Assembly (NCBI GenBank): GCA_021404945.1
Contig: QWHO01000035.1
Location: forward strand, 1-37,470
Direction: 5' to 3'
Length of the DNA stretch: 37,470 bases
From: a bacterium CPR1
GTDB taxonomy: Bacteria; Vulcanimicrobiota; Xenobia; Xenobiales; QWHO01
The translations under genes and the position numbers were made by a program. Below the pieces are notes generated by a model. It ran no database searches and had not been told where the DNA came from. It saw only the letters and a program-made list of their open reading frames with translations. Positions 3,279 through 16,143 of the stretch are shown in pieces; positions within the stretch are counted from its first letter, which is position 1, and each line of letters starts with the position of its first letter.

Positions 3279-5140
3279 GCGCTCGCCTGCTGGCCCTGAC
3301 AGCTCTGTTGGGCCTGCTCTGCTGCGCCGCCCCCCGACCCGAGACGGACAGGATCTACCTGCTGCGCAGCCAGGCCACCCTGGCCCAGGCTGGCTGGCGG
3401 GGGGAGTGGGAGCTGGAATGCGCCCGGCGCACTCTGGCCAGCCTGGGCGCCGAGCCCGAGGTGATCGGCGAGGAGCGTCTGGCGGATCTTGCGCCCGGGC
3501 TGCTGGTGCTCTCCAACGTGCGCAACATGAGCGAGCCCGATGCCGAGGCGGTGCGCGCCTTCTGCCGCAAAGGAGGGCGTGTTCTGGCCACCGCCCTGAC
3601 CTCCTATCGCCAGGCCGACGGCTCCCCCTGGCAACCCAACAACTTTGCTCTGGCCGACGTCCTGGGGGCTGACTTTCTGCGCTGGGGCGCTCCCGACCGC
3701 ATGGACAAGATCCTTCTGGGCAAGCGCAACGCCATGCTGGTCAGACCTCGCGACCACGCCCGTGTGCGAGCTCGCTTCGAGAGCGGCGATCCGGCCATTC
3801 TGGAGACCGACTGGGGAACCTATGTGGCCGAAGACCTGCTCGCGCCCGAGGATACGGCCGCCCCCGAGGTGCGCAAGCTGCTGGCCGAGCTGTTGACCCG
3901 GCTTTCTCCGCTGCGCAGCTTCGCGCCCGGTCCCTACACCGAGCTGCCGCCCCCCCTGCCCTTTCGCGAGACGCTGCCCGAGGGCGAGAGGCTGGACGTG
4001 CTGGTGGAGGAGAAGGTCCCTGCCATCAAAGTGGGCTCGCGGGAGGTGCGGGCCATCCTCACGGTGGGCAAGCCCCCTGCCCTGGCGCTCTATGACCGGG
4101 CAGGAAAGCTGCTGCGCCGCAGCAGCGAACCCCTGATTTTGCAGGAGAAACCTTACACGGCGTTGCGCATCACTCGCAGCAACGGCAGCTATCGCTGGTC
4201 GGCCTATCGGGGGGAGGTGGTGCTGGTTCCCGAGCTGCACGGACTGAGCGTGCTCAACCGGTTGACGCTGGAGGAATATCTGGCCGGAGTGGTGCCCAAC
4301 GAGGTGCCCCCCGGTTTCCCGGCCGAAAGCTTGAAAGCGATGGCGGTGGTGGCCCGCAGCTACTCGCTGGCCCACCGGGGGGCGCATTCCGGGGCCGACC
4401 TGTGCGACGAGGTGCACTGCCAGGTTTACGGCGGACTCGCCTCCGAGGCCGACAGCACCACGGCGGCGGTGCTGGCCACCCACGGCGGCGTGCTTTCTTC
4501 TCTTGGCCAACCCGTCGACGCCACCTTCCACGCCGTCTGCGGCGGGGTGGGGCAGGACGCCGACCGGGTCTGGTCCGGTCGCGGGGCGGCCTATCTTCGC
4601 GGCCGCCCCGACACGCTCGAGTCCGATCCGGGCAGTTTGGCCAGCGAGGAGGCGGTGAGGACTTTCCTCGAGCACCCTCCCGAGGACGCCTGCTGTCGCC
4701 AGGCCGGCCGGTTTCGCTGGCGGGAGAGCTACTCTCGCCAGGAGATGGAGCAGCGTCTGAACGCCTCTCTCAGTGTGCTGGTCAAGGCCGAGTGGCACGG
4801 GCTCGGTCGCTTGAAAGCCCTTCGAGTCACCGAGCGCGGCCCTCTGGGGCGGGTCGAGGCACTCGAGGTGGAAGGCGAGCAGTGCCGCTATACGGTACGG
4901 GGGGATCGGGTGCGCTGGCTGACCAGCGGTGGGAAGATCGGGGCAGCCGGGTTGAACAGCACTCTTTTTGTGGTGAAGCTTGTCGGGGACAGGGTCGAGC
5001 TGGACGGGGGGGGCTGGGGCCACGGTGTGGGCATGTGCCAGGAGGGCGCGGCCGGAAGAGCCCGCTCAGGGTGGAAGTACCCGGCCATTCTGGAGCATTA
5101 CTACCCGGGAACCGACCTTACAGGACCCCCTGCACCCTGA
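3275..5140 (+). CDS. SpoIID/LytB-type cell-wall enzyme with an N-terminal ThuA/amidotransferase-like domain
   Basis: 621 residues. The start ATG 3275 overlaps the murQ stop; the frame is open upstream but the signal sequence MSARLLALTALLGLLCC fixes this start, with a weak lipobox-like LLCC. Residues ~25-215 resemble a ThuA or glutamine-amidotransferase-like flavodoxin fold (GLLVLSNVRNMSE, FCRKGGRVLAT). Residues ~320-620 are a SpoIID domain, with VPNEVPPGFPAESLKAMAV at ~339 and GGWGHGVGMCQEGA at ~579. The Glu of NEVP corresponds to the catalytic Glu of SpoIID lytic transglycosylases. The family cleaves denuded glycan strands to anhydroMurNAc ends. Coupling to MurQ suggests one turnover and recycling route; endospore formation should not be inferred from this gene alone. 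Confidence 0.88.
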   Translation: MSARLLALTALLGLLCCAAPRPETDRIYLLRSQATLAQAGWRGEWELECARRTLASLGAEPEVIGEERLADLAPGLLVLSNVRNMSEPDAEAVRAFCRKGGRVLATALTSYRQADGSPWQPNNFALADVLGADFLRWGAPDRMDKILLGKRNAMLVRPRDHARVRARFESGDPAILETDWGTYVAEDLLAPEDTAAPEVRKLLAELLTRLSPLRSFAPGPYTELPPPLPFRETLPEGERLDVLVEEKVPAIKVGSREVRAILTVGKPPALALYDRAGKLLRRSSEPLILQEKPYTALRITRSNGSYRWSAYRGEVVLVPELHGLSVLNRLTLEEYLAGVVPNEVPPGFPAESLKAMAVVARSYSLAHRGAHSGADLCDEVHCQVYGGLASEADSTTAAVLATHGGVLSSLGQPVDATFHAVCGGVGQDADRVWSGRGAAYLRGRPDTLESDPGSLASEEAVRTFLEHPPEDACCRQAGRFRWRESYSRQEMEQRLNASLSVLVKAEWHGLGRLKALRVTERGPLGRVEALEVEGEQCRYTVRGDRVRWLTSGGKIGAAGLNSTLFVVKLVGDRVELDGGGWGHGVGMCQEGAAGRARSGWKYPAILEHYYPGTDLTGPPAP

Positions 5141-12014: not shown

Positions 12015-12278
12015 ATGGACGCGCAGGAGATCTTGTCCTTCCCATGTGATTTCCCCGTCAAGGCAATGGGCAACTCGGCCCCCGACTTCGCCGAGCACGT
12101 GGCCGCCATCGTGCGCCGGCACGCTCCGGGGTTCAACGAGGCGGCAGTCTCGAGTCGCAGCTCGAGCGGGGGCAAATTCACCGCCGTCACGGTGATGATT
12201 CAGGCCACCAGCCGGGCCCAGCTTGAGGCGATCTACCAGGATTTTCACCAGGACGAGCGCGTGCTCTACGTCATTTGA
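12015..12278 (+). CDS. ybeD: YbeD/DUF493 family protein
   Basis: 87 residues, the family's usual size. The N-terminus (ILSFPCDFPVKAMG) and C-terminus (IYQDFHQDERVLYVI) match the YbeD/DUF493 ferredoxin-like fold, which resembles small-molecule-binding regulatory ACT-type domains. Its molecular role is not well established. ATG 12015 has no Shine-Dalgarno, but TATCCT sits immediately upstream (12007-12012), so a leaderless mRNA is possible. The next gene begins 18 bases later. The 57-base gap to the divergent pilN may hold both promoters. Confidence 0.85.
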   Translation: MDAQEILSFPCDFPVKAMGNSAPDFAEHVAAIVRRHAPGFNEAAVSSRSSSGGKFTAVTVMIQATSRAQLEAIYQDFHQDERVLYVI

Positions 12279-12296: not shown

Positions 12297-12629
12297 GTGT
12301 CGCATATGACCGTGGTGGTGACCCAGCTCATCGAGCCGCGCTTCATCGAGAAGGCGGCCGCCGACCTCTCTCACAAGGTGGAGATTCAGGCTCGTCAGAG
12401 TTTCAGCATCGAGCGGGTGGCATTCAACTGGAACGGCAAGAGCTATGAGGCCAGCGCAGATAGCGACCATGTGAAGGCCGAGAAGGTGCATTCGCTGGCC
12501 AGGAAGCTGAGTCAGCGCTACGCCTATCACGCCACCAGGGAAACCCTGGCCGAGAAGGGCTTCGACCTGGTGACCGAGGAGACCGAGAAGAGCGGCGCCA
12601 TTCGACTCACGCTGAGGCGGATCGCCTGA
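12297..12629 (+). CDS. DUF1257 (Ycf35-like) protein
   Basis: 110 residues from GTG 12297, 8 bases after AAGGAGG (12282-12288); TTG 12291 and ATG 12306 are alternatives. The start VSHMTVVVTQL and the C-terminal run SQRYAYHATRETLAEKGF...EKSGAIRLTLRR fit the DUF1257 family, called Ycf35 in plastids and cyanobacteria. The family sits beside DUF2997 and Ycf46 in many genomes, as here, but has no established biochemical role. Its stop overlaps the start of the broken DUF2997 gene by one base (ATGATGG). Confidence 0.82.
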   Translation: MSHMTVVVTQLIEPRFIEKAAADLSHKVEIQARQSFSIERVAFNWNGKSYEASADSDHVKAEKVHSLARKLSQRYAYHATRETLAEKGFDLVTEETEKSGAIRLTLRRIA

Positions 12630-12761
12630 TGGAGATTCAAGAGGTTCAGGTGGTCATCGGCCCCGGAGAAGGCGCTGGGCAGGGTCTCGAGCCGGGAGAT
12701 GACCCCCGAGGCTCACCAGCACGTGGAGGTCTCTCAGGACGCTCAGGTTTGGGGCGGCTGA
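12629..12761 (+). pseudogene. DUF2997 gene with internal deletion and frameshift
   Basis: From ATG 12629 the frame reads MEIQEVQVVIGP, a typical DUF2997 N-terminus. After about base 12664 the family continues in another frame: PEKALGRVSSREMTPEAHQH, then VEVSQDAQVWGG and a stop at 12759-12761, a typical DUF2997 C-terminus. The middle of the domain (roughly 20-24 residues, including the usual G-x(2)-G-x(2)-C region) is absent. A deletion that is not a multiple of three explains both observations. The original frame now stays open into the radical SAM gene. Whether the loss is real or an assembly error cannot be told here. Confidence 0.72.
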
Positions 12762-13294
12762 AGCTCCATCACTTCCTGAAGGGCAGCCGGGCCAACGGTC
12801 CGGGGTTGCGCGCGGTGCTCTGGGTGCAGGGCTGCTCGCTGGGCTGCCCGGGATGCTTCAACCCCGAAACCCACGCGTTGGAGGGCGGCCAGGAGTGGGA
12901 AGTCGATTCCCTCTTCGACGAAATTTGTGCTTTAGACGAGATCGAGGGCCTCACCATCAGCGGGGGAGAGCCCTTGCAGCAACGCGCTCCCCTGCTCGAG
13001 CTGCTCGGTCGGGTGCGCCGCGAAACCGGGCTTTCGGTACTGATCTTTACCGGGTTTGCCTTTGAGGAGCTGCGCTGTCCCGAGTTGCTCGAACTGGCCG
13101 ACGTCCTCTTGTGCGGGCGCTTCCACGAAAAAGAGCGCCTGGCCAGCGGCCTGATCGGGTCGGCCAACAAGGCGGTGCATTTTCTGACGACTCGCTACTC
13201 GATGCAAGACCTGGACGAGGTGCCGGTGGGAGAGGTGGTCATCGGGCCCGAAGGGGTGGTGGTCTATACCGGGATCGACCCGCTGAGGAGCTGA
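12749..13294 (+). CDS. Radical SAM activase-like protein, NrdG/PflA type
   Basis: 181 residues from TTG 12749, which overlaps the old DUF2997 stop and has AGGA 9 bases upstream; CTG 12758 is another option. The frame is also open to ATG 12629, which would add a 40-residue N-terminus made of DUF2997 remains. The domain begins LKLHHFLKGSRANGPGLRA and has the CSLGCPGC cluster motif (Cx3Cx2C) that binds the 4Fe-4S cluster and SAM. TISGGEPL is the SAM-binding GGE motif. The family activates glycyl-radical enzymes or makes other radicals; no glycyl-radical enzyme is in the window. The stop is 2 bases before ycf46. Confidence 0.88.
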   Translation: MGRLKLHHFLKGSRANGPGLRAVLWVQGCSLGCPGCFNPETHALEGGQEWEVDSLFDEICALDEIEGLTISGGEPLQQRAPLLELLGRVRRETGLSVLIFTGFAFEELRCPELLELADVLLCGRFHEKERLASGLIGSANKAVHFLTTRYSMQDLDEVPVGEVVIGPEGVVVYTGIDPLRS

Positions 13295-13296
13295 CC

Positions 13297-14838
13297 GTGG
13301 ACTTCGAGGACCAGCTGGAAATCTTTCTGCGTGCTCGCTTCACGCTGATCGCCGTGACCACGGTCGAGGAAGAGCGCGCCCTGGAGGCCATCGCCCGGGT
13401 CTGCAAACGCAACAACCTGGGCTGCGTCAGCTGGGACGTGGCCGATACCTTCGCGCACCTCTTGCCGTCCAGGGAAGAGCTCACCTCGGCCCGCGAGCCC
13501 TTCACCGCCCTGGAGAAGATCGGCGCTTACCGCGGCGATGCTGTCTTCGTGCTCAAGGACTTCCATGACTTTCTCAATGTGCCCCAGGTGCGCCGTAAGC
13601 TCAAGAGCCTGGCCTACCAGCTCAAGGTGTCGCGGCGCCACCTGGTGGTGCTCACGCCCTTCGCGAAGGTCCCCGAGGAGCTGCGCGACATGTGGGTGCC
13701 GCTCGACCTCCCCATGCCGTTGGCGGGCGAGCTCGACCAGCTGGTGACCCAGCTCTCCAACGTGGCTGGAGGCAGCGTGCGGCTCACGCCGCTGGGCCGC
13801 GAGAAGCTGGTGCAGGCGGCCCTGGGTCTTACCGCCTCGCAGGCTTCGCGGGCCTTCGCCAAGGCGCTGGTGACCGACGGCTGCCTCGACGATCGCGACA
13901 TCGGCCTGGTCACCGAAGAAAAGCGCCTGATCCTGCGCGAGAGCGAGGCCCTCGAGTTCTTCCCCGTGACCGAGACGCCCGCCGACGTGGGCGGGCTGGG
14001 GGTGCTCAAGGACTGGCTGCGCCTGCGCGAGCGGGCTTTCACCAAAGAGGCTCGCGACTACGGCCTGCCCACCCCCAAGGGGATCGCCCTGGTGGGCATT
14101 CCGGGCACGGGCAAGAGCCTGACCGCCAAGATGATCGGTGGCCTTTGGAACATGCCGGTGGTGCGGTTGGACGTGGGCAGCCTCTTCGGCAGCCTGCTCG
14201 GTGAGTCGGAGGAGAAGGCCCGCCGGGCCCTGCGCCTGGCCGAGACGGTGGCTCCCTGCATCTTGTGGATGGACGAGATCGACAAGTCGCTGGGAGTGGG
14301 GACCGGGGCTTTGGACCAGGGCACCAGCCGGCGCGTGCTGGGCACGCTGATCACCTGGATGCAGGAGAAGACGGCCCCCTGCTTCGTGGTGGCCACCGCC
14401 AACGACATCCAGACCCTGCCCCCCGAGCTGCTGCGGCGCGGCCGCTTCGACGAGATGTTCTTTCTGGATCTGCCCACGCTGGAGGAGCGGCGCGAGATTC
14501 TGGCGGTGCACATCACCCGCCGTCACCGCCTGCCTCACGACTATGACATCGCCCGCCTGGCTGGCATGTCCGAGGGCTACGTGGGGGCCGAGCTCGAGCA
14601 GGCAGTGGTGGATGCGATGTTCTACGCCTTCAGCCAGCAGCGCGAGTTTACCACCGAGGACGTGGCCCGGGCCATCCAGCAGCAGGTGCCGCTCAGCAGC
14701 ACCCAGCGCGAGGTGGTGGAGGGCCTGCGCAAGTGGCTGCTCGAGGGGCGGGCCCAGTCGGCTTCCTTCCGCGAGGTCACCGAGGCCCAGCAGAAGGCCG
14801 TGCCCCTGCAGCTGGTCAAACGCTCCTACGGGGTTTGA
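13297..14838 (+). CDS. ycf46: Ycf46-like AAA+ ATPase
   Basis: 513 residues, usual length ~500. Start is GTG 13297 with GAGGAG at 13285-13290. Residues 1-225 form the N-terminal domain of the family (FLRARFTLIAVTTVEEERA; FVLKDFHDFL). The AAA+ module follows: Walker A GIPGTGKS (267-274), Walker B ILWMDEID (322-329), sensor/arginine-finger region LRRGRFDEMF near 381-390, and a helical lid with SEGYVGAELEQAVVDA. Ycf46 has been linked to photosynthesis and inorganic carbon use in cyanobacteria, but it is widespread in non-phototrophs. Here it ends the DUF1257 / DUF2997 / radical SAM cluster and is likely its motor or chaperone. Confidence 0.92.
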   Translation: MDFEDQLEIFLRARFTLIAVTTVEEERALEAIARVCKRNNLGCVSWDVADTFAHLLPSREELTSAREPFTALEKIGAYRGDAVFVLKDFHDFLNVPQVRRKLKSLAYQLKVSRRHLVVLTPFAKVPEELRDMWVPLDLPMPLAGELDQLVTQLSNVAGGSVRLTPLGREKLVQAALGLTASQASRAFAKALVTDGCLDDRDIGLVTEEKRLILRESEALEFFPVTETPADVGGLGVLKDWLRLRERAFTKEARDYGLPTPKGIALVGIPGTGKSLTAKMIGGLWNMPVVRLDVGSLFGSLLGESEEKARRALRLAETVAPCILWMDEIDKSLGVGTGALDQGTSRRVLGTLITWMQEKTAPCFVVATANDIQTLPPELLRRGRFDEMFFLDLPTLEERREILAVHITRRHRLPHDYDIARLAGMSEGYVGAELEQAVVDAMFYAFSQQREFTTEDVARAIQQQVPLSSTQREVVEGLRKWLLEGRAQSASFREVTEAQQKAVPLQLVKRSYGV

Positions 14839-14953: not shown

Positions 14954-15029
14954 GTCTGATGGGACACTTACCCGAACTTCGTTTCAGCGCGTCGTAAATT
15001 GGTCGAGGGACCCGGCGGGTTGGGACGGC

Positions 15030-15409
15030 GGTATCGAACATTCCTTCGGTCGCCCGGGCCCAGTCCCCGGTCCCAGGCCGGATCGCCCCCAAGAATCCTG
15101 TTCGATTTTTGAACCGCCGGTATCGGACATTTGTTCGGTCGCCCGGGCCCAGTCCCCGGTCCCAGGCCGGATCGCCCCCCCAAGAATCCTGTTCGATTTT
15201 TGAACCGCCGGTATCGGACATTCGTTCGGTCGCCCGGGTCCAGTCCCCGGTCCCAGGCCGGATCGCCCCCCAAGAGTCCTGTTCGATTTTTGAACCGCCG
15301 GTATCGTACGTTTGTTCGGTCGCCCGGGTCCAGTCCTCGGTCCCAGGCCGGACCGCCCCCCAGGAGTCCTGTTCGAAATTTGAACCGGCGGTATCGTCTC
15401 TTTGTTCGG
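15030..15409 (+). repeat. Tandem array: four ~90-bp units plus a partial fifth
   Basis: Units begin with GGTATCG at 15030, 15119, 15210, 15300 and 15390; spacings are 89, 91, 90 and 90. Each reads GGTATCG, a short variable part, TTCGGTCGCCCGGG, CAGTCC(C/T)CGGTCCCAGGCCGG, a C run of 5-7, CCTGTTCGA and TTTGAACCG(C/G)C. Length differences come from the C run. Units differ by a few substitutions each, and unit 4 is the most diverged. The fifth copy stops after ~20 bases at the edge of the vapB upstream region. Confidence 0.92.
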
Positions 15410-15481: not shown

Positions 15482-15730
15482 ATGGGCGAAGTAGGAATTG
15501 CCAAAATCTTCATGCATGGGCGCAGCCAGGCGGTGCGACTGCCGGCTGCTTTCCGACTGCCGGGCGAGAAAGTGCGCGTTCGGCGGGTACCCGAGGGGAT
15601 TTTACTCGAGCCCATCATCACTGACCTGGATGCCTGGTTTGCCCTGCTCGATGAGAATGCCGACGAGTCTTTTCTGGAGGAGGGCCGAAACCAGCCACCG
15701 ATGCCACCACCCAATGACCTCTTCCAGTGA
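15482..15730 (+). CDS. vapB: VapB-type antitoxin (AbrB-like N-terminus)
   Basis: 82 residues from ATG 15482. The N-terminus GIAKIFMHGRSQAVRLPAAF is the SpoVT/AbrB swapped-hairpin DNA-binding domain typical of VapB, where xxGxSQAVRLP is the family signature. The acidic and Pro-rich C-terminus (~55-82) would wrap and inhibit the toxin. The stop overlaps the vapC start as GTGA, the normal coupled arrangement. The frame stays open upstream through the tandem repeats, but the promoter just before the ATG supports the short form. Confidence 0.88.
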   Translation: MGEVGIAKIFMHGRSQAVRLPAAFRLPGEKVRVRRVPEGILLEPIITDLDAWFALLDENADESFLEEGRNQPPMPPPNDLFQ

Positions 15731-16143
15731 GTTATCTGCTCGACACGAACGCAGTGATTGCGCTCTTGAGGCAGAAACCACACCCGGTCGATGAGCGGTT
15801 TCGGCGAGAGCTGAGAGCGAGAGAAGTGATCGCGGTAAGTTCCATCGTGCTCTTCGAGCTTTGCTACGGGATTGCGCGCAGCCAGCATCCCGAGAAGAAC
15901 GCGAAATCTTTGCGAGACTTTCTTGCCGGCCCGATCCAGGTGCTGGATTTCAACCCTGAAGACGCCGCTCGAGCCGGCGAGATTCGAGCTCACCTGGAAG
16001 TCCGGGGCACCCCCATCGGGCCGTATGACCTCCTGGTCGCGGCCCAGGCTCTGAGAACCGCGACCACGCTCGTGACGGCCAATTTCGCCGAGTTCGCGCG
16101 CGTGCCGGGCCTGCGCTGGGAGGACTGGAGTCTTCCCGACTGA
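15727..16143 (+). CDS. vapC: VapC-type PIN-domain ribonuclease toxin
   Basis: 138 residues, start GTG 15727. PIN domain with the conserved acidic residues: Asp6 in LLDTNAVI, Glu44 in VLFELCYGI, Asp101 in GPYDLLVAAQA. The C-terminal VTANFAEFARVPGLRWEDW is the common VapC ending; the acidic site normally binds Mg2+. VapC toxins cleave tRNA or rRNA and stop translation until the antitoxin rebinds. Intact and in frame. It lies between the 90-bp repeat array and the repeat-flanked DUF4143 gene, an accessory setting. Confidence 0.92.
   Translation: MSYLLDTNAVIALLRQKPHPVDERFRRELRAREVIAVSSIVLFELCYGIARSQHPEKNAKSLRDFLAGPIQVLDFNPEDAARAGEIRAHLEVRGTPIGPYDLLVAAQALRTATTLVTANFAEFARVPGLRWEDWSLPD

Follow-up and report, generated by a model that had tools for sequence, protein, structure and literature searches.

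An apparent DUF2997 gene remnant reading in frame into a radical SAM gene in a DUF1257 operon of bacterium CPR1

INTRODUCTION

DUF2997 (PF11211) is a family of small proteins found in cyanobacteria and other bacteria, encoded beside DUF1257/Ycf35, Ycf46-like AAA ATPases, or ferredoxin. The cluster in Synechocystis is given as duf2997-ycf35-fed7 (PMC4284462). DUF1257 and DUF2997 also occur alongside an AAA ATPase on a Pseudanabaena plasmid. The literature that we searched contained essentially no functional work on DUF1257 or DUF2997. On the Treponema succinifaciens plasmid pTRESU01, DUF1257 lies inside a contractile-tail-like cluster (sheath, baseplate), and DUF2997 is located elsewhere on the plasmid. 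On the Geminocystis plasmid pGM3709_04 (positions 4001-4383 of the region L079), the DUF1257 homolog aligns as two separate segments, and the annotated protein diverges from the family close to its C-terminus, which suggests a frameshift.

Here, we describe a locus of this type in bacterium CPR1 (Vulcanimicrobiota), in which the DUF2997 gene appears to have lost its central third and now reads in frame into the neighboring radical SAM gene. The window refers to the whole stretch of DNA analyzed, the 37,470 nucleotides of contig QWHO01000035.1.

RESULTS

The genes of the locus follow the order DUF493, DUF1257, DUF2997 (as a remnant), radical SAM, and AAA (Table 1). The window contains an open reading frame at 12629-13294, 221 aa in length, that spans both the DUF2997 start and the radical SAM gene. 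This ORF is a chimera in which residues ~13-43 are out-of-frame DUF2997.

Table 1. Features of the DUF1257 operon and of the DUF2997 remnant within it
Feature	Position in the window	Strand	Details
DUF493, intact, upstream	12015..12278	+	PF04359, E = 3.2e-28, 82 of 84 positions
DUF1257 (Ycf35-like)	12297..12629	+	GTG start (MSHM...); PF06868, E = 9.7e-15; in-frame loss of ~17-20 residues at about codon 23 (near 12370)
DUF2997 N-terminal remnant, MEIQEVQVVIGP	12629..12664	+	ATG overlaps the DUF1257 stop; Shine-Dalgarno-like stretch
Deletion junction, ggccccgg	12659..12666	+	Alignment with relatives; codon-usage frame switch
DUF2997 C-terminal remnant, EKALGRVSSREMTPEAHQHVEVSQDAQVWGG	12666..12761	+	+1 frame; stop TGA 12759-12761
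Radical SAM (Fer4_12, activating-enzyme-like)	12749..13294	+	PF13353, E = 3.3e-30; native start TTG 12749 or CTG 12758; in frame with ATG 12629
AAA ATPase (Ycf46-like), intact	13297..14838	+	PF00004, E = 1.2e-28; full-length, ~53% identity to the G010 protein

In four genomes of the same order (G010-G013), DUF2997 begins with exactly the first eight residues of the ORF, MEIQEVQV. Shifted by one base relative to the ORF, the frame 12630-12758, which ends at the TGA, yields EKALGRVSSREMTPEAHQHVEVSQDAQVWGG; its reading from 12666 opens as EKALGRVSSREMTPEA..., which corresponds to the DUF2997 C-terminus. The PF11211 profile matched the C-terminal peptide over profile positions 31-47 of 47 (E = 0.0017). 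The score of 18.7 bits lies below the 24.1-bit cut-off, as would be expected when only a third of the domain is left. With an HMM built from the relatives, no other six-frame segment of the window scored as well as the C-terminal one (E = 4e-4), and the N-terminal piece came next. We also compared the six-frame translation of the window with 12 DUF2997 proteins. The only exact 8-mers in common were MEIQEVQV at 12629 and SREMTPEA at 12690; across 347 kb of the genome's other contigs, a single 7-mer was shared with these proteins. The two octapeptide matches are far beyond chance.

Alignment with the relatives placed the two DUF2997 pieces directly against each other, abutting within ~8 bases. 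From Ile10 to the EE/EK of the C-terminal helix, the relatives have 25 residues, versus ~3 here. The loss relative to the relatives is therefore ~22 residues, or ~68 nt, and in any case 2 mod 3. Between codon 12 and the EKALG segment, the conserved G-x-x-G-x-x-C core is missing, and its Cys with it. Both ends of the family are thus recognizable and adjacent, in the expected operon position beside DUF1257, and neither a profile score above the cut-off nor the Gly-x-x-Gly-x-x-Cys core in one open frame was found. As judged from these sequence comparisons, the feature is a DUF2997 gene remnant and not a functional member of the family.

Codon usage gave the same picture. We scored the 31 codons of the C-terminal reading with statistics taken from the genome's remaining contigs that were sampled. 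The DUF2997 frame scored +11.5 bits, where true-frame segments average 11.2. Read in the frame of the fusion, the same codons scored -11.2 bits, a value as low as that of only 1% of true-frame segments, and the third frame scored -31.6 bits. Near 12660, coding leaves frame 0 for frame 1, and frame 0 resumes with the radical SAM gene. The C-terminal remnant itself is free of codon-level decay.

Collectively, these results confirm the original observation, which had assigned the first 12 codons from 12629 to DUF2997, identified the missing part as the conserved core, and proposed that the initial frame stays open so that a gene call at 12629 yields a chimera with out-of-frame DUF2997. It had also placed a DUF2997 C-terminus in another frame, ending exactly where the radical SAM gene begins. 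Both the frame and the end point were recovered, with the TGA overlapping the CTG at 12758, but a separation of ~40 bases between the two pieces was not, as this distance is obtained only when counting from 12629.

We then surveyed relatives for the arrangement of these genes. DUF2997 was present in all five other genomes of the phylum that have DUF1257 with a visible neighborhood; in each it is intact (65-70 aa) and the radical SAM gene is separate. A sixth genome with DUF1257 (G020) was left out of this count because DUF1257 lies at a contig end with its neighbor out of view. In G010-G012, a second locus has an intact DUF2997 followed by its stop and directly by the radical SAM gene, which is how the genes would be expected to have lain here prior to the deletion. 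No fused DUF2997-radical SAM protein was found among relatives at the order level and above. DUF2997 similarity was present in both frames in the all-frame search. Homology, codon-usage scores, and the undisrupted gene order of the relatives agree on an internally deleted DUF2997 that runs into the radical SAM gene, as originally proposed.

Profile (E ≤ 0.001) and protein searches of the organism's own assembly detected no further DUF2997. A search for a duplicate of the locus was likewise negative, and DUF1257, radical SAM, and AAA genes of this type each occur once. A weak DUF2997 match on another contig (C495, E = 0.017) was rejected since its translation is not DUF2997-like. A scan of genome contigs for close relatives returned only distant radical SAM proteins from Peptoniphilaceae, Anaerococcus, and Tissierellia. 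An exact DNA pattern had no match in viral contigs, and comparison with plasmids revealed similarity in the AAA-domain DNA only.

The upstream neighbor of the remnant is also changed, a feature that is new beside the first reading, in which DUF1257 had not been mentioned. The protein clearly belongs to the family, with the MSHxT start and a profile score of 55.1 bits against a cut-off of 22.2. Compared with proteins from the same phylum and with cyanobacterial and Treponema homologs, it lacks the GFxPQVGRLEVRGYxG segment after the first helix, and both of its ends are normal. In addition, the ADxWG motif reads ADSDH here, so the conserved WG is gone. The in-frame loss and the altered conserved positions suggest, at the level of sequence, that constraint on the DUF1257/DUF2997 pair has been relaxed.

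Two other features of the window were noted. At 15029-15396, just downstream of the operon, there are four tandem units of ~90 bp that are 90-99% identical and absent elsewhere in the assembly. At 15525-16143, a small ORF with no Pfam match is overlapped at its end by a PIN-domain gene (E = 3e-22), an arrangement that resembles a VapBC-type toxin-antitoxin pair.

The radical SAM protein aligns over its full length with those of relatives. The PF13353 match covers positions 1-137 of 137 and includes the CxxxCxxC motif, of which C69, C73, and C76 are invariant. CTG 12758 is the first codon that can be aligned with radical SAM starts, and the nearest usual start is TTG 12749. The predicted anti-Shine-Dalgarno duplex is -7.5 kcal/mol for ATG 12629, -4.0 kcal/mol for TTG 12749, and -3.5 kcal/mol for CTG 12758. 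When the chimera was modeled using AlphaFold2, with an alignment of only seven sequences, residues 1-40 had a pLDDT of <50 and a well-formed domain began at about residue 41. The predicted structure begins at the native radical SAM start.

DISCUSSION

We consider it probable that a real and recent internal deletion inactivated DUF2997 in the DUF1257-DUF2997-radical SAM-AAA operon. We favor a real deletion mainly because DUF1257 is also shortened and altered, with no such damage to the radical SAM and AAA genes. An internal deletion of about 68 bp would have taken DUF2997 residues ~13-34, with the core, and changed the frame. The junction would fit slippage involving a putative pair of short GGCCCCG-type repeats (IGPD...APEK). 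Formerly, ribosomes would have terminated at the TGA and re-initiated at the radical SAM gene. After the deletion, those starting from the well-placed ATG 12629 would translate the DUF2997 tail out of frame and continue into the radical SAM sequence. The enzyme would thus still be made, carrying a disordered N-terminal extension of ~43 residues. The DUF1257/DUF2997 half of the module would then be decaying, and the radical SAM and AAA half would be maintained.

A possible but less probable explanation is that the deletion arose in sequencing or assembly. The organism would then have an intact DUF2997, and possibly a full-length DUF1257, obscured by errors or by strain-mixture collapse in a fragmented, metagenome-type assembly. 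The locus is known from a single assembly in 798 contigs. The undecayed codon usage and homology of the remnant, the intact radical SAM and AAA partners, and the retention of DUF2997 in every comparable genome would all be consistent with such an error, and two small losses ~290 bp apart are unusual as independent events. In contrast, the loss in DUF1257 is in frame and accompanied by substitutions at conserved positions, which assembly error would not produce, and the remainder of the 37-kb contig consists of apparently intact genes. The junction has only a short possible repeat; graph collapse in assembly usually requires repeats longer than the k-mer.

Comparisons of assembly quality, which covered 385 kb of this genome and 2 Mb of the long-contig relative G001 with few orthologs, pointed in both directions. 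In a homology-based survey, frameshift-like cases occurred at 2 of 78 places in this genome and at none of 109 in relatives. Segmentation by codon usage, a coarse measure of low specificity and power, yielded ~52 candidate frame breaks per Mb here versus 50 in G001; it is weak evidence because it is too coarse to resolve the 12660 junction itself. The convincing one of the two frameshift-like cases lies on the minus strand of contig C708 (~12635-12760 of the region L113), where a response-regulator/SARP-like gene extends over two frames and is ~35 residues shorter than its G001 homolog. From this comparison, an out-of-frame internal deletion is probable there too, and other breaks therefore exist in this assembly. 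An 18-aa gap in a carbamoyltransferase-like protein was also considered as a break and was rejected as a subfamily difference.

Two further readings treat the present arrangement as functional. It is very improbable that a streamlined DUF1257/radical SAM/AAA module works without DUF2997, using a short DUF1257 and a radical SAM protein with a stably kept out-of-frame DUF2997 extension. A selected fusion, in which the remnant and the radical SAM protein form a conserved working protein beside a miniaturized DUF1257 in a streamlined module, is very improbable. In its favor, the frame is uninterrupted over the 43 codons leading into the radical SAM gene, the ribosome-binding context of ATG 12629 is the better one, and DUF1257 was shortened in frame rather than destroyed. 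However, residues 13-43 have the codon usage of an out-of-frame reading, no predicted structure, and no homology of their own, and none of the relatives has such a fusion or extension. Finally, a programmed ribosomal frameshift at 12659-12666 that decodes DUF2997 has almost no chance of being correct despite the short C run (gcccc) at the junction, because no frame encodes the ~22-residue core with its conserved Cys, and the relatives, all with a single open frame, do not need one.

Since the core is absent, the DUF2997 remnant represents an ordinary kind of event, of use chiefly as a caution for annotation. The cause is probably routine gene loss, or an assembly error, rather than a new kind of protein. 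When a small gene is partly deleted, the chimeric ORF left behind can look plausible enough to pass automated annotation, and the loss then goes unseen. Provided that the deletion is real, this lineage offers a natural test of whether the radical SAM and AAA partners can do without the uncharacterized DUF1257/DUF2997 pair. If it is not, the assembly conceals an intact DUF2997 gene.

Compared with known systems, the locus resembles DUF2997 in its N-terminal MEIQEVQV, its C-terminal EKALG..SREMTPEA, and its location between DUF1257 and the radical SAM and AAA genes, but the central ~22 residues with the Gly/Cys core are gone and the two ends lie in different frames. The radical SAM protein is like other Fer4_12, NrdG-type activating-enzyme-like proteins in its CSLGCPGC motif, full-length domain, and ~50% identity to the G010-G013 proteins, and the accidental N-terminal extension is the sole difference. 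With ends in two frames, a lost core, and no other copy, the feature matches an internal-deletion, frame-shifted pseudogene or prokaryotic gene remnant. Unlike in a typical frame-shifted pseudogene, no stop codon happens to interrupt the new frame before the adjacent gene, and the 221-aa chimeric ORF results.
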